Source: Prevotella denticola (lineage in GTDB: Bacteria > Bacteroidota > Bacteroidia > Bacteroidales > Bacteroidaceae). From it: DNA of 64,000 bases. Under the pieces are notes generated by a model. It saw only the letters and a program-made list of their open reading frames with translations. It did not search any database and was not told where the DNA came from. The position numbers and the translations under genes are program-made. This document shows, one piece after another, positions 39,050 through 46,304 of this stretch (its first letter is position 1; every line of letters begins with the position of its first letter). The stretch covers positions 434,501 to 498,500 of the forward strand of contig NZ_UGTM01000001.1 in the NCBI RefSeq assembly GCF_900454835.1, given 5' to 3'.

Positions 39050-40339
39050 TTACTGCTTGTGATAGCTGTCGAGCTTTGCAAGATAGAACTTTCTGAAGTC
39101 GTCCCACCTATAATAATAAGGTGTGCCGGTGGCAGGCAGCGGCATCGTTGCCTCTTCTTCATTGAGCAGTGCCTTCACAAGGATGTCGGCATTGGGCTTC
39201 CTGGCATTTTTGTAGAAGATAAGCTGTATGTTGGCAGCCATCGGGAAAATGCGCGATCCGATCCACCCTCGTGCCTCAAGACTGTCTACCTGGTTCACTT
39301 GTGCATTGCTGTTGTTGAGGTCGAGCAGGCACGCCAGCGGCATGACCATCGTTTCATGTCCGAAGCGGAGCGTCGCTCCCGGATGCGGAAGGGAAAGACA
39401 CGAGTCGGCCGTGCTGATGATGTTGCGCAGCAGGTTGCGTTGTGAGAAGGGTTGTGTGCCGCCGTTCTGGGGTGCGCCTGCATAGTGGAGATACCACCAG
39501 ACATTGGCACGCTGCCAGAAGCGGTACTGTTCATCGGGGGTGAAGAGGTCGTACAGCGACAGCGAGCGGCGTATCTCGGAGTTCTGGACGATACCTGCCA
39601 GACTGAAGAGGTCGTGTGCCAGCTGCGGCGCATCCACGTTCCGGGCTGCATAGGCTGTGTCATTGAAGAGACGGGACATCAGCGGACGATAGTCCAGATG
39701 CTGTTTTTCCCATTCCTCCATGGTCTTTTTCACCTCGTTATTCTCCTTCCGCCGGGCGAGCTTCTCGTCAGAGAGGTTCATGTAGTACATATCATGTGTA
39801 CTGGCATCGTGACGAATCTGCAGGCGCGGATTGTGGCGGAGGAGTTCCTGAAGCTCATTTTCCATGGACAGGATGCAGCGGATGACGACCGTCGACCGGG
39901 CATCTACCCACACCGGACCGTTGAAGACGGACGGGAAACGCTCGTACATCCGCCGTGCTATCTGCCGGTGCTGCTCTGCACCCAGGGGTGTCAGTTCGCC
40001 CCATCTGTCGTACGATTCTGCCAGCATACGGCGTATCTTCGTTATTGCTTCCTTTCCCTTCCCGGTGAGGACACCTGCCGAGTCGGCCCGCTCCAGTACT
40101 TGCAAGGGGCGGGTGTACTGCTGCTCCCGGATAAGATAGCGTGAACCGTGCCGTCCGTAGTGGGAGATATAAACAGGGGCATAACCTGCCGGAGGCGGTG
40201 TGAGCCTGCCCGAAGGTGCGGGATAGGCAAGATAGTTGCTGGCCGAAAGCTCCGGCCGTGCATTGATTTCCTTTCTGAACGACTGTGCCGACAAATACAG
40301 GGTCGGCAGAAATGACAGCAGGAACAGTAGAAGCCTCAC
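39050..40339 (-). CDS. exported histidine acid phosphatase
   Basis: About 429 residues if translation begins at the GTG at 40339, giving the signal peptide (V/M)RLLLFLLSFLPTLYLSAQ. A longer frame reaches an ATG at 40411, but those 24 residues (SPFGEGLGVR and repeat-derived) precede the signal sequence and come from repeat DNA. Phosphatase motifs: VYISHYGRHGSRYLI (RHGxR, phospho-His), LTPLGAEQHRQIARRMYERFP, and RFGHETMVMPLACLLDL (HE, acid/base). Periplasmic phosphomonoesterase or phytase-like; substrate unknown. Confidence 0.88.
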   Translation of the reverse strand: MRLLLFLLSFLPTLYLSAQSFRKEINARPELSASNYLAYPAPSGRLTPPPAGYAPVYISHYGRHGSRYLIREQQYTRPLQVLERADSAGVLTGKGKEAITKIRRMLAESYDRWGELTPLGAEQHRQIARRMYERFPSVFNGPVWVDARSTVVIRCILSMENELQELLRHNPRLQIRHDASTHDMYYMNLSDEKLARRKENNEVKKTMEEWEKQHLDYRPLMSRLFNDTAYAARNVDAPQLAHDLFSLAGIVQNSEIRRSLSLYDLFTPDEQYRFWQRANVWWYLHYAGAPQNGGTQPFSQRNLLRNIISTADSCLSLPHPGATLRFGHETMVMPLACLLDLNNSNAQVNQVDSLEARGWIGSRIFPMAANIQLIFYKNARKPNADILVKALLNEEEATMPLPATGTPYYYRWDDFRKFYLAKLDSYHKQ

Positions 40340-40371
40340 CCCCAGCCCCTCTCCGAATGGAGAGGGGAGTG
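40332..40371. repeat. left arm of 40-bp perfect inverted repeat (SPFGEG type)
   Basis: AGCCTCACCCCCAGCCCCTC... to 40371; its exact reverse complement is at 40798-40837. Internally it is itself palindromic (CCCCTCTCC-GAAT-GGAGAGGGG). Reads as PLPSPFGEGLGVRL in one frame, a peptide I recognise from repeat-derived spurious proteins of Bacteroidetes. It supplies the GTG start and the purine-rich leader of the phosphatase gene. Confidence 0.9.
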
Positions 40372-40797: not shown

Positions 40798-40837
40798 CAC
40801 TCCCCTCTCCATTCGGAGAGGGGCTGGGGGTGAGGCT
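40798..40837. repeat. right arm of 40-bp perfect inverted repeat
   Basis: Exact reverse complement of 40332-40371. Lies 9 bp after the C1 peptidase stop (leftward gene) and could act as its transcription-end hairpin. A degenerate relative (CCTCATCCCCGGCCCCTCTCC) is at 46032-46052. Confidence 0.9.
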
Positions 40838-42321: not shown

Positions 42322-42352
42322 CAAAGTTAGCATTATTTTCCTAATACCTTTG
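42322..42352. promoter_or_regulatory. back-to-back -7 elements for C1 peptidase and recombinase
   Basis: Minus-strand TAACTTTG (complement of 42322-42329) serves the peptidase; plus-strand TACCTTTG (42345-42352) serves the recombinase. The elements are 15 bp apart, so the two polymerase sites overlap and may compete. Confidence 0.55.
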
Positions 42353-42391: not shown

Positions 42392-43405
42392 ATGATACGT
42401 AGAAAATTTTGTCTGTTCATGGCATGGCTTGGAGTCGAGCGCAAGCAGACGACCTGCAAGACAGGAAGAAGAAAATCCTCCGTCCGTTCCTACACAGCTT
42501 TCGCACGACAGCAGATCCGGATGGCACGGCAGAGGGAGGCTTTCTGTACCGCCCGGAATTATCTTACGGCACTGAACTCTTTTACGGTGTTCTGTCGTAC
42601 AGAGGAGATTACTTTCCCTATGGTGACAGCACAGCGCATGGAGGATTACCAAGCGTGGCTGCGGCATCAGGGTATCTGCCTCAACACCATCTCCTGCTAC
42701 ATGAGGTCGTTGAGAGCCGTTTACAACAAGGGAAAGAGGCAATGCGACAGCAGACGGGGCGACCCTTTCGCAAAGGTGTTCACGGGCAATGCCGTCACAC
42801 AGAAGCGGGCACTGGACAAGGCGACCGTAGACAGGCTGCGGACAGCATCGCCCGAGCGAGGCAGCCGGCAACGGACGGCCCAGCAACTGTTCCTCTTCAG
42901 TCTGTATGCTATGGGGATGGCATTTGCCGATATGGCTTATCTCCGGATGGACGACATCAAAGGCGGGTGCATCATCTACAGGCGGAAGAAGACCGGACAG
43001 ACCATCCGTATCAAGATAGAGCCTTGTATGCAGACCGTCATCGACGAACTGCACCAGGAGGGAAGTACGATGGTGTTCCCACTGCTGGACAGCGACAGAC
43101 CGCACGCAATGCACCGCCAGTGTCAGGCTGCTCTCAAACAGCACAACCGGCAGTTGAAAGCTGTAGCAAGGGAAGCAGGCATCACAGAGAACATCACGTC
43201 CTACATGGCAAGGCATACATGGGCTACCCTTGCTCATGAACGGAACATCCCCATTGCTGTCATTTCAAAGGCAATGGGGCATACCAGCGAAAGGACGACA
43301 AGGATATACATTGCAGAACTGAACAGCGAAATCGTCCATACGGCAAATAAGGAGATAACCGATTGGATAATGGATGCTCCTCTTGCGAAGAGGAGCAGAA
43401 ACTGA
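42392..43405 (+). CDS. tyrosine recombinase, DNA-invertase (Tsr/Mpi-like) type
   Basis: 337 residues from the ATG at 42392, 39 bp after its -7 box. SAM-like N-terminal DNA-binding region (RSYTAFARQQIRMARQREAF..ARNYLTALNSFTVF; YQAWLRHQGICLNTISCYMRSLRAVY), then the catalytic domain: box I region LFSLYAMGMAFADMAYLRMDD, RRKKTGQTIRIKIE, TSYMARHTWATLA (Arg274), AMGHTSERTTRIYI (His297, Tyr306). Matches the Bacteroidetes recombinases that invert promoter segments. Its last codons contain one arm (43377-43395) of an inverted repeat whose partner lies downstream. At box I, Met174 stands where I would expect Arg. Confidence 0.88.
   Translation: MIRRKFCLFMAWLGVERKQTTCKTGRRKSSVRSYTAFARQQIRMARQREAFCTARNYLTALNSFTVFCRTEEITFPMVTAQRMEDYQAWLRHQGICLNTISCYMRSLRAVYNKGKRQCDSRRGDPFAKVFTGNAVTQKRALDKATVDRLRTASPERGSRQRTAQQLFLFSLYAMGMAFADMAYLRMDDIKGGCIIYRRKKTGQTIRIKIEPCMQTVIDELHQEGSTMVFPLLDSDRPHAMHRQCQAALKQHNRQLKAVAREAGITENITSYMARHTWATLAHERNIPIAVISKAMGHTSERTTRIYIAELNSEIVHTANKEITDWIMDAPLAKRSRN
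43377..43395 (+). repeat. inverted repeat IR-L of invertible segment
   Basis: CTCCTCTTGCGAAGAGGAG, inside the last codons of the recombinase. Near-palindromic with an asymmetric GCG centre that gives it a direction. It matches the reverse complement of IR-R at 18 of 19 positions. Confidence 0.88.
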
Positions 43406-43513
43406 CTTGTACGATGTTACGTCCTTGAAATTCAGTGCCTGACGAGAATGTTAAAAATCCTATATGCTATAAAAATAGATGAAATAATAAGTGCCTGTCT
43501 CAAGAAAAAAGTA

Positions 43514-43521
43514 TAAATTTG
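43514..43521 (+). promoter_or_regulatory. promoter -7 element inside invertible segment, ON orientation
   Basis: TAAATTTG (TAnnTTTG consensus) pointing right, toward the surface-protein genes. Transcription would start near 43528 and run through IR-R. No strong -33 was seen. Inversion of 43377-43573 would point it at the recombinase instead. Confidence 0.65.
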
Positions 43522-43554
43522 CAACCGAATTGGATAAATCGGCACTACAAAGTC

Positions 43555-43573
43555 CTCCTCTTCGCAAGAGGAC
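43555..43573 (-). repeat. inverted repeat IR-R of invertible segment
   Basis: CTCCTCTTCGCAAGAGGAC, the inverted partner of IR-L with the central triplet CGC instead of GCG. The arms enclose 159 bp. Confidence 0.88.
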
Positions 43574-43787
43574 GGCTGACCACTAAGGGAATAACCCTAT
43601 AGCAGACAGGAAGGGCTGATGGATAGAGAGCCCCCTGCTGGAAACAACACTTTTCATGTAATGACTGCACGAAAGGTGCAGTCCGTAGTAATATTCCTAA
43701 GGGTGTCTTAATCGTGAGATTAGGGCACTCTGCTTTAAAATACGATTTAGAGAGAGTAAAACAATAAGTAAAATTTAAACGAAAAGA
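43574..43787 (+). promoter_or_regulatory. structured 5' leader of surface-protein operon
   Basis: About 215 nt of noncoding leader after IR-R. Hairpins: GACTGCAC (43663-43670) / GTGCAGTC (43676-43683) with loop GAAAG, and CTTAATC (43707-43713) / GATTAGG (43718-43724) with loop GTGA, flanked by GTG/CAC pairing. Possible post-transcriptional control; no known riboswitch class recognised. Confidence 0.5.
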
Positions 43788-45770
43788 ATGAGACGAATTT
43801 ATGTTTTAGGCATTATGCTCATGACCATCATCATGGCGTATGCCGGTCCGACTAAAGTGATGAAAGGCGATACGCTTGTCATCACGGTGAATGCTGACGG
43901 CGACCTCGCCCTGAGCAATTTCACGGAAGCAGAGAAGGCTGCCACCCATGTGAAGCTGGTTACTGCCAACGGTGTGAGGATTTCGCAGACCGACTGGACG
44001 AACTTCTTCGGTGGGAGCTATACCACTCCACCTTTTTCAAAGATCAAAGACTTAGATCTGGCATTGGCAGACTTTGCTAATGATGAGATGCTTGTCACTC
44101 TGGGGCAGAATTCAAAGTTTCTGAACGGAGGTAAAGTACTTGGTGAACTTGTCCTGCCGGAGAGCATCAAAGAGACCAAGTTCTCGTTTAACGATAATCT
44201 TAGCAAGTGGAGAAGCGTGGTATTCCCCAATGCTACCAAGGATGGGAATAAAGGGACTACGAAGATTGGTGCCAGTGTCTTCTCAGGTACAGAATGGCTC
44301 CATAAGCTGACCATCGGTACAAGTGTAGGGTCTATTGCAGACATGGCTTTTAACAACTGTAAAAACCTCACAATGGTAGATTTCCTGTATGGAGTGAAGA
44401 AGATTGATACCCATGCTTTCTGGGGCTGCACAGGACTGACCAGCATCATTCTTCCTGAAAGTCTCGAAGAGATTGGCTTGGGTGCTTTCGAGAGCTGTAC
44501 GAACCTCACAACTGTGCGCCTTCCGAACTCGCTGAAGACCATCAAACAGGAAGCATTTGAGGGGACTGGACTGAAGACGGTCGTTATCCCTGCCAGTGTA
44601 GAGCACATCGAGCGCCAGGCTTTTGGTGGAACAAATTCTCCACTACAGGATGTGTATGTACTTGGCAGCAAGACAAAAGCAGATTTACAGGCATTCCAGC
44701 CGACTGGTTATACTTATGGTTATTCCTATAATGGGCCAGGTAAGGGCGAGGTCGTGGAACTTTCCCAATTCACAACACAAACCGGTCATTATACCATACT
44801 GCACTATCCAGAGGAGGCCTATGAAAAGTATATCAACAAATACCTTCAGGTGATAGGCACAGATAAGTATGCTGCATCTGGCTATCCTGAATGGGAAAAC
44901 AAATGGGTGGTTGATAAAAACGGCAACAGGTATCCCACACAAGACAATGGCCGTTTTACCAACCCTGGTGGCGACTATGCCGGCTGGAACGAATTCATGC
45001 TCACTGCCAAGCTGAAGGATACGCACAAGGACGAGCGTCTTGTCGAGAGCAAGTGGTATTCCGTCTGCTTCCCGTTCAATCTGACGGAAGAGCAGATCAA
45101 GAATGCCTTTGGTGATGCTACGGAGGTATGCGAGTTCAGCGGTGTGAAGAGCGACAACGACCCGCATATCACCGGCAAGAAATACATTACCTTGCAGTTC
45201 AAGACCGAGGTGAAGGGCATGAAGGCACACCATCCCTACATGATTCACCCGGGTCTTCACCATGCCGAGTACAGTATTATCGTAGGTGTAACCAAAGATA
45301 CTGACGCAGACAACGACAAGTTTGCCAAGAAGCTGAAGGCAGAGAGTGTCAGTCACGAAACGGACGGCGTGAAGTACACCTTTATCGGCAACTACACCGA
45401 GGGCATCAAAGTGCCGATGTACAGCTACTATTATTACTCCGGCAACAATCCGAAGTGGGAGAATGCCTTCTACAAGGCTATGCGCACAGACGTCATATTC
45501 ACCCCGCAGACCGCAGTCGTAGAACTCAGCAGAGACAATGGCGTGTCGGGAGCTGCCAAGCAGGCGTTCTATACACGGAGCATCGATACCGATCCGACAG
45601 GCATCAGCACGCTTCCTGCCGCCGATACCTCGAAGTCGGCCCATCCTTTTGCCGGCCGCAACAACGTCTACAGTGTCTACGGACAGATTGTCCGCCTCGG
45701 TACGACGAACCTCGAAGGACTGCCGGCAGGTCTGTACATCGTGAATGGTAAGAAATACATTGTAAAATAA
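43788..45770 (+). CDS. BspA-like leucine-rich repeat surface protein
   Basis: 660 residues. Signal peptide (RRIYVLGIMLMTIIMAYAG). LRR_5 (BspA/TpLRR) repeats at ~120-300: LHKLTIGTSVGSIADMAFNNCKNLTMVDF, GVKKIDTHAFWGCTGLTSIILPESLEEIGLGAFESCTNLTTVRLPNSLKTIKQEAFEGTGLKTVVIPASVEHIERQAFGG. A long C-terminal region has no assigned domain and ends in VYSVYGQIVRLGTTNLEGLPAGLYIVNGKKYIVK, the Prevotella-type C-terminal sorting/anchoring module (type IX secretion-like). BspA proteins bind host matrix proteins, so an adhesin role is plausible. Expression is expected to be phase variable. Confidence 0.88.
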   Translation: MRRIYVLGIMLMTIIMAYAGPTKVMKGDTLVITVNADGDLALSNFTEAEKAATHVKLVTANGVRISQTDWTNFFGGSYTTPPFSKIKDLDLALADFANDEMLVTLGQNSKFLNGGKVLGELVLPESIKETKFSFNDNLSKWRSVVFPNATKDGNKGTTKIGASVFSGTEWLHKLTIGTSVGSIADMAFNNCKNLTMVDFLYGVKKIDTHAFWGCTGLTSIILPESLEEIGLGAFESCTNLTTVRLPNSLKTIKQEAFEGTGLKTVVIPASVEHIERQAFGGTNSPLQDVYVLGSKTKADLQAFQPTGYTYGYSYNGPGKGEVVELSQFTTQTGHYTILHYPEEAYEKYINKYLQVIGTDKYAASGYPEWENKWVVDKNGNRYPTQDNGRFTNPGGDYAGWNEFMLTAKLKDTHKDERLVESKWYSVCFPFNLTEEQIKNAFGDATEVCEFSGVKSDNDPHITGKKYITLQFKTEVKGMKAHHPYMIHPGLHHAEYSIIVGVTKDTDADNDKFAKKLKAESVSHETDGVKYTFIGNYTEGIKVPMYSYYYYSGNNPKWENAFYKAMRTDVIFTPQTAVVELSRDNGVSGAAKQAFYTRSIDTDPTGISTLPAADTSKSAHPFAGRNNVYSVYGQIVRLGTTNLEGLPAGLYIVNGKKYIVK

Positions 45771-45776
45771 AGGAGA

Positions 45777-46004
45777 ATGAAAACTATGACCGCAATGAAA
45801 CAAACATATCAGCACCCTTACATTGAAGTTTCCTCTATAGAGATGGAGTTACTGCTTACAGCCACTTCTAAAAAAGACCAGTACGACATCGGTTCAGGCG
45901 ATTCCAAGTGGCCGAAGTCGGGCGACGTACACGACGACACCGGCAACGGCCCAGGTGTCTCCGGTGCGAAGGAGCATCAGTCCTACGACTTCTGGGAAGA
46001 CTAA
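45777..46004 (+). CDS. 75-residue hypothetical protein, companion of BspA-like gene
   Basis: Starts 6 bp after the LRR stop, with AAAGGAG spanning the previous stop codon as ribosome site, so it is cotranscribed. Sequence begins MKTMTAMKQTYQHPYIEVSSIEME, a pattern seen in many small Bacteroidetes proteins encoded beside surface genes. The C-terminal half is polar and acidic with Gly/Asp/Ser (YDIGSGDSKW, SYDFWED). No signal peptide, Cys or membrane segment. Function unknown; a short secreted or chaperone-like peptide is possible. Confidence 0.65.
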   Translation: MKTMTAMKQTYQHPYIEVSSIEMELLLTATSKKDQYDIGSGDSKWPKSGDVHDDTGNGPGVSGAKEHQSYDFWED

Positions 46005-46143
46005 GGGGGGAGAAGACACCTCAGCCCAGCCTCATCCCCGGCCCCTCTCCGAACCAACGGTCACTGGCAGAAGGGAAGAAATAGGGAGAGAGGCAGAATG
46101 CAAATGCCTTTCCGGGGTTTTACAGATTGAAAACATCCCAATA

Positions 46144-46193
46144 AGAAAAGCCCATTTCATGACTCCTTTCGGAGTAGGGAAATGGGCTTTTCT
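46144..46193. terminator. bidirectional terminator
   Basis: Perfect 15-bp stem AGAAAAGCCCATTTC (46144-46158) / GAAATGGGCTTTTCT (46179-46193) with a 20-base loop that can itself pair (ACTCC/GGAGT). It lies between the BspA-like operon and the convergent lipoprotein operon. The rest of 46005-46304 is noncoding, with degenerate SPFGEG-type repeat fragments at 46032-46052 and 46260-46300. Confidence 0.85.
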
Positions 46194-46304
46194 TTGCTTT
46201 TTAGAAAATCTCAATTTACAAATTGCGGGCTGTCAGGCCGTCGATTTGTATTTTGCCCCTTTGGGGGATGAGGGGCTGGACCGGGGCTAAAACAGCCGGG
46301 CCCT

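Follow-up and report, generated by a model that had tools for sequence, protein, structure and literature searches.

Does the DNA behind a tyrosine recombinase gene of Prevotella denticola carry a promoter that the recombinase turns around, and if so, which genes does it switch and in which state was it deposited? The window, which is the whole stretch of 64,000 nucleotides analyzed here (contig NZ_UGTM01000001.1, positions 434,501–498,500), contains this recombinase gene, a short inverted repeat enclosing a promoter element, a structured leader, a gene for a leucine-rich repeat (LRR) protein and a small open reading frame (ORF). Judged by comparison with homologous loci, the locus is very probably a self-contained, locally acting phase-variation switch, which consists of a tyrosine recombinase and an invertible promoter and was caught in the ON orientation.

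The Recombinase and Its Putative Recombination Sites

The recombinase gene (42392–43405, + strand) encodes 337 amino acid residues from the ATG at 42392. The polypeptide, a presumed invertase, matches the Pfam families Phage_integrase (E 4.4e-16) and Phage_int_SAM_5 (E 8.4e-15), so that a full-length tyrosine recombinase lies alongside the segment, as in Tsr-type switches and as the initial annotation had placed it. A strict TAnnTTTG element, TACCTTTG, is located upstream at 42345–42352 on the + strand and could drive the recombinase gene. The next-best recombinase encoded in the same genome is 28% identical (E 2.1e-18). The best sequence matches in the PDB were a XerC-like protein, XerA, IntI4 and other integrases. 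In the alignment with the XerC-like protein, the first Arg is replaced by Ala177 and the His of the HxxR motif by Tyr271, while Lys200, Arg274, His297 and Tyr306 match it and do not vary across an alignment of 11 sequences; all six positions are taken to be catalytic ones. None of the 10 other proteins in this alignment (A1) possesses an Arg at the first-Arg position. IntDOT reportedly also lacks the first Arg. Because Ala replaces the first catalytic Arg and no Arg is found there in the 10 relatives, the case for recombinase activity rests on conservation.

The repeat arms at 43378–43395 and 43555–43572 are 18 nt long, 100% complementary and 159 nt apart. Extended by one base each, the left site (43377–43395, + strand) and the right site (43555–43573, − strand) pair at 18 of 19 positions, which agrees with the 19-bp pair enclosing 159 bp that had been annotated. 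The putative invertible segment between them (43396–43554, 159 bp) is delimited on the basis of the family comparison described below. Each arm is a near-palindrome on its own (TCCTCTT-GCG-AAGAGGA), of which the 3-bp centre is asymmetric, reading GCG in one arm versus CGC in the other, again as annotated. An inverted repeat with asymmetric centres around a short segment is thus present at the window locus, as in Tsr-type systems. Its inverted-repeat score is 18. Scores of at least 15 were found in 28 of a first set of 80 loci; dinucleotide shuffling of the 3' regions of these loci gave such a score once in 800 trials. The left site forms part of the recombinase gene close to where the reading frame ends and codes for PLAKR plus partial flanking codons; in the predicted transcript, the right site also forms a hairpin within the 5' leader.

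The exact 15-bp core of the site occurs twice in the whole genome, both times at the window locus. With 2 mismatches allowed, 8 matches were found in the genome versus 10 for a reversed control pattern. Since the matches do not exceed those of the control, no distant target is indicated, and candidate sites elsewhere in the genome were rejected as not above chance. A separate, perfect 40-nt inverted repeat with arms 426 nt apart (40332–40371 and 40798–40837) lies between two leftward genes of the window; it resembles a dispersed GC-rich repeat.

The Predicted Promoter and the Structured Leader

A scan of both strands of 43377–43800 identified only one TAnnTTTG element, TAAATTTG at 43514–43521 on the + strand, in line with the single rightward promoter element of the initial annotation. 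It is the sole one in the segment and faces away from the recombinase gene, which is the ON orientation. This single −7 match, which is identical and in the same sense in a recombinase-free relative (locus L258 of genome G148), suggests a promoter reading out of the segment, as in Tsr-type switches. No clear −33 box was found by eye. A sigma-70-type scan produced two 9-of-12 matches in the leader (43714–43741 and 43746–43774), the total of 4 comparing with a shuffle mean of 4.2.

The leader (43525–43787) has a folding z-score of −5.2, consistent with the structured leader that had been proposed. Between its core (43600–43735, + strand) and L258, 31 consensus pairs are kept in both species, of which 3 are changed on both sides and none is broken. 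A search of 348 genomes with leader model R1, built from the genome of the window and G148, gave matches at E 0.1 or better in 10 genomes, and only these two source genomes scored strongly. No third convincing member was found among the 348 genomes, for which 4 of the 8 weaker matches were viewed: those in G068 (E 4e-6), G247, G170 and G171 seemed by eye to be terminator-like or chance hairpins; the other four weaker matches were in G348, G030, G144 and G304. Of the weak nucleotide matches, which included L233, L234 and L235, that in L233 looked unrelated by eye. No known RNA family was detected at gathering scores in the whole window, the best chance match having an E value of 3. Attenuation by the final leader hairpin was also considered and rejected, as by eye no T-run follows this hairpin in either species.

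The LRR Cassette

The first gene behind the leader (43788–45770, + strand) encodes a BspA-type leucine-rich protein of 660 amino acid residues. It contains an LRR_5 repeat region (Pfam, E 5.2e-33), which bears out its annotation as BspA-like, and by eye it starts with a signal-peptide-like sequence. Its role in adhesion is a guess from its family. Its tail, GLPAGLYIVNGKKYIVK, looks by eye similar to a T9SS type A sorting domain; no match to a curated C-terminal sorting domain model was found at E 0.01 in Pfam or NCBIfam. Of 398 genomes searched, 20 others encode a homolog of the LRR protein (E value of 1e-30 or lower); that of G148 is about 81–82% identical.

The gene is followed by an ORF for an acidic companion peptide of 75 residues (45777–46004, + strand), as annotated, which by its position is probably co-transcribed. 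The window copy has no Pfam or NCBIfam match. In each of the 15 other loci, the homologous LRR gene has an ORF of 62–81 codons behind it, which in 14 of them is similar to that of the window at a tblastn E value of 0.002 or lower (L271, E 0.21). These peptides of 62–81 residues are acidic, start with MK..Y..P and often contain GGPGVSGAK near the end. Similar small ORFs were also noticed behind the LRR genes of L119 and L126. Past the cassette, a hairpin with 24-nt arms (46143–46194) is followed by T-rich sequence and is a possible terminator; the terminator scan did not list it.

No recombinase was found within the stretches of the 15 fetched LRR loci, of which that of L265 extends only ~130 bp upstream; thus, the LRR cassette does not always come with the switch. 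L258 is informative in this respect. Its LRR gene is preceded by the promoter core AAAAAAGTATAAATTTGCAAC, the leader and a single site, CCTCTTCACAAGAGG, at the same place and in the same sense as in the window, and no recombinase was found in its stretch, nor anywhere in G148 at E 1e-40. A candidate for a decayed left site in G148, with the centre GTG near the right place, was rejected, as only ~8 of 15 bases match by eye. Because L258 keeps promoter, site and leader in the same sense without a recombinase, the window most likely shows the promoter in the orientation from which the LRR gene would be expressed, which also supports the original assignment of the ON state.

The same comparison raises the prospect of a fossil switch, in which inversion has ceased in the strain of the window and the promoter is fixed ON, as is apparently the case in G148, which shares promoter, leader and gene with the window and has a single site without a recombinase. 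That the segment is known in one orientation only, from one genome, would fit such a history, but the recombinase ORF is full length and the arms are perfect over 18 bp, which an unused pair would not need, so that we regard it as unlikely. Under the preferred reading of a working switch, the recombinase presumably cuts these sites and both states presumably occur in this strain.

Homologous Loci and Their Putative Invertible Segments

Homologs of the recombinase were found at E 0.001 in 56 of 60 relatives, and in 120 of 398 genomes of the genus at E 1e-40 or lower. The best identity was 45%, and no close copy of the window locus was present among the genomes searched. Together with the window, 140 fetched loci were compared (141 in total), a few of which are from other families of the order. 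Thirteen of these end less than 700 bp past the recombinase and were omitted, leaving 128. It was also noticed that contigs ending soon past such recombinases (13 loci), that of L074 just beyond the site CTCTTTCCAAGAG, might reflect assemblers breaking at mixed orientations.

Inverted-repeat scores of at least 15 were found in the 740 bp at the recombinase 3' end of 51 of the 128 loci, compared with 6 of 136 controls on the 5' side and 2 of 117 controls 1.5–2.2 kb downstream. The other 77 of the 128 homologous loci were without a strong short repeat near the recombinase. Several arms shared the core CTCTT-NNN-AAGAG with varied centres, such as CCTCTTGGGAAGAGG in L069 and CTCTTTCTAAGAG in L075, and the sites of G024 were GTTACTT-NNN-AAGTAAC. 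A set of 56 segments was defined by scores of at least 13; none was dropped, near-duplicate loci were kept in all counts, and repetitive elements (e.g., L068, L139, L112, and L148) were retained. A strict TAnnTTTG element within 75 bp of the edge it faced, mostly at 33–62 bp, was present in 44 of the 56 segments, compared with 200 of 2800 shuffled segments (7%). The element faced away from the recombinase (ON) in 11 segments, including that of the window, toward it (OFF) in 32 and both ways in 1, and was missing in 12. By eye from translations, other segments precede fimbrial, capsule-regulator and defence-like genes.

Homologous segments were also found in opposite orientations. Those of L203 (G104) and L213 (G103) are 94.6% identical over 168 bp when one of them is reversed and 48% identical otherwise. 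The adjoining sequence on the 3' side is 95% identical over 300 bp in the same sense; toward the recombinase, identity is 97% over 96 bp before the 5' side diverges. L213 is without a strict −7 match. L214 is a relative whose arms are the same; its −7 element points away from the recombinase and that of L203 points toward it. More diverged cases of opposite orientation are L203/L214, L174/L176, L075/L187, and L075/L211. Because homologous loci hold their segments in opposite orientations, these comparisons indicate that members of this recombinase family invert DNA in nature. The initial annotation had proposed to compare orientations in related assemblies; such a comparison found opposite orientations in the homologous pair L203/L213, but no close copy of the window segment itself was found. 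Homologous loci, edge-facing −7 elements and opposite orientations in relatives together support its overall reading of the locus as a phase-variation switch.

The same arms may also be read as RNA hairpins, one terminating the recombinase gene and the other belonging to the leader. Their self-complementarity, the hairpin that the right arm forms in the folded leader, its terminator-like appearance on the − strand (5 such sites in the region versus a shuffle mean of 3.7) and the longer lone palindrome of G148 (10-3-10 by eye) would be explained in this way. However, the left arm lies within a gene and is not followed by a T-run on the + strand, the arms are related to each other as an inverted repeat through their asymmetric centres, and in homologous loci such pairs enclose segments that are oppositely oriented between loci; hairpins in place of recombination sites are therefore highly improbable.

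Some other loci displayed additional arrangements. In L075 and L073, the segment is followed by genes that by eye are phage-defence-like, including a large ATPase with GTGKSH and DNA methylases, which suggests phase-variable defence. In L065 (5940–7479, recombinase on the + strand), a pair of oppositely directed SusC-like genes flanks the recombinase gene and inverted repeats of about 40–53 bp are present, an arrangement that resembles by eye a shufflon of outer-membrane receptors.

A Putative Recombination Site Within the Recombinase Gene

The stop codon of the recombinase gene (43403–43405) is inside the invertible segment, 10 bases beyond the left arm, which the initial annotation had not mentioned. 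When the segment was reversed in silico, the recombinase stayed 337 residues long and its last three residues changed, PLAKR-SRN becoming PLAKR-RTL; a reversal one base longer additionally changed an Ala to Gly. As the left site codes for residues close to the C-terminus, a flip would swap the last three residues of the enzyme.

The left arm begins within the recombinase gene in 14 of the 56 segments, and in 15 loci when L126 is included; L126, whose score of 12 is under the segment cut-off, was assigned manually to this class for the tree. Two main groups (SH-aLRT 98) emerged from a quick maximum-likelihood tree, which was built with 140 recombinases (one of the 141 loci was too short). Embedded sites occurred at 15 of these 140 loci, 14 of them within the main group of the window. 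Reversal was computed for 13 embedded loci and altered the tail in 11, the exceptions being L119 and L126. The downstream ORFs of 13 of the 15 embedded loci, including the window, were scanned: five contained LRR_5 (window, L069, L119, L126, and L134), one each was DUF3575, HU-like and NusG-like, that of L124 had sub-threshold matches only, and those of L114, L117, L128, and L163 had none. Among the embedded LRR_5 loci, L069 and L134 have the promoter facing toward the recombinase, and L119 and L126 have it facing away. No opposite orientations were found among the embedded-site loci, where the sole near-identical pair, L124/L128, is in the same orientation.

The following mechanism is proposed. 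The recombinase (42392–43405) would bind two mirror-image sites of about CCTCTT-NNN-AAGAGG, the asymmetric centres of which would fix the sense of exchange, and would invert the 159 bp between them. In the deposited ON state, transcription from the promoter with the −7 element would run rightward through the right site and the leader of ~260 nt to reach the genes of the LRR_5 protein and the companion peptide. In the OFF state, the promoter would read leftward, antisense to the recombinase gene. Each flip would also change the end of the recombinase from PLAKR-SRN to PLAKR-RTL, with the enzyme still at its full length of 337 residues. ON and OFF cells may then make different isoforms of an invertase whose tail each flip rewrites, and it is conceivable, if rather doubtful, that this biases the switch or lets it sense its own state.

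Comparison With Known Switches

Intragenic inversions are reportedly the subject of a 2024 paper. Among the open-licence papers listed, no title or beginning of an abstract described an embedded site of this kind or an inverted LRR promoter. The embedded site is the least familiar part of the switch.

According to reports on Bacteroides fragilis, the tyrosine recombinase Tsr19 (BF2766) lies near the IVp-I promoter, which is bounded by inverted repeats, has a TAnnTTTG −7 element and switches a surface function (PMC4747536; PMC3090145). Similar to Tsr19/IVp-I as described there, the tyrosine recombinase of the window is near an inverted-repeat-bounded promoter with TAnnTTTG. In these descriptions, Tsr19 also acts at a site far away and switches an exopolysaccharide operon locally. 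For the window, by contrast, there is no indication of a second site in the genome, the local target is an LRR_5 gene, and one of the recombination sites lies within the recombinase gene. In gut Bacteroidales, invertible promoters directly downstream of invertase genes with the −7 consensus TANNTTTGY are described in another report (PMC8748976). The promoter of the window is likewise directly 3' of the invertase gene, its −7 element being TAAATTTGC compared with TANNTTTGY (PMC8748976). The targets described for that class are resistance or glycan genes, often tied to conjugative elements, whereas that of the window is an LRR cassette, and the passages of PMC8748976 compared make no mention of a site embedded in the invertase gene.

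The initial annotation had likened the locus to both Mpi and Tsr switches. Similar to the capsule promoters controlled by Mpi, the promoter of the window would switch a surface molecule by inversion. However, Mpi of B. fragilis is a serine recombinase that inverts 13 regions (PMC4747536), while the window enzyme is a tyrosine recombinase for which one local target was found. Because Mpi is a serine recombinase, only the comparison with Tsr fits. The system is a known kind of bacterial switch; less usual are that one site is embedded and that the target is an LRR cassette whose leader is conserved.

The results point to a large recombinase family in one genus, many members of which lie beside a promoter switch of their own. 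LRR proteins are among the targets of this family, to which inspection by eye adds fimbrial, capsule-regulator and defence-like genes. The LRR surface-protein cassette with its structured leader joins the surface functions that are probably phase-variable. The embedded site offers a clean test of self-regulation by such a switch.
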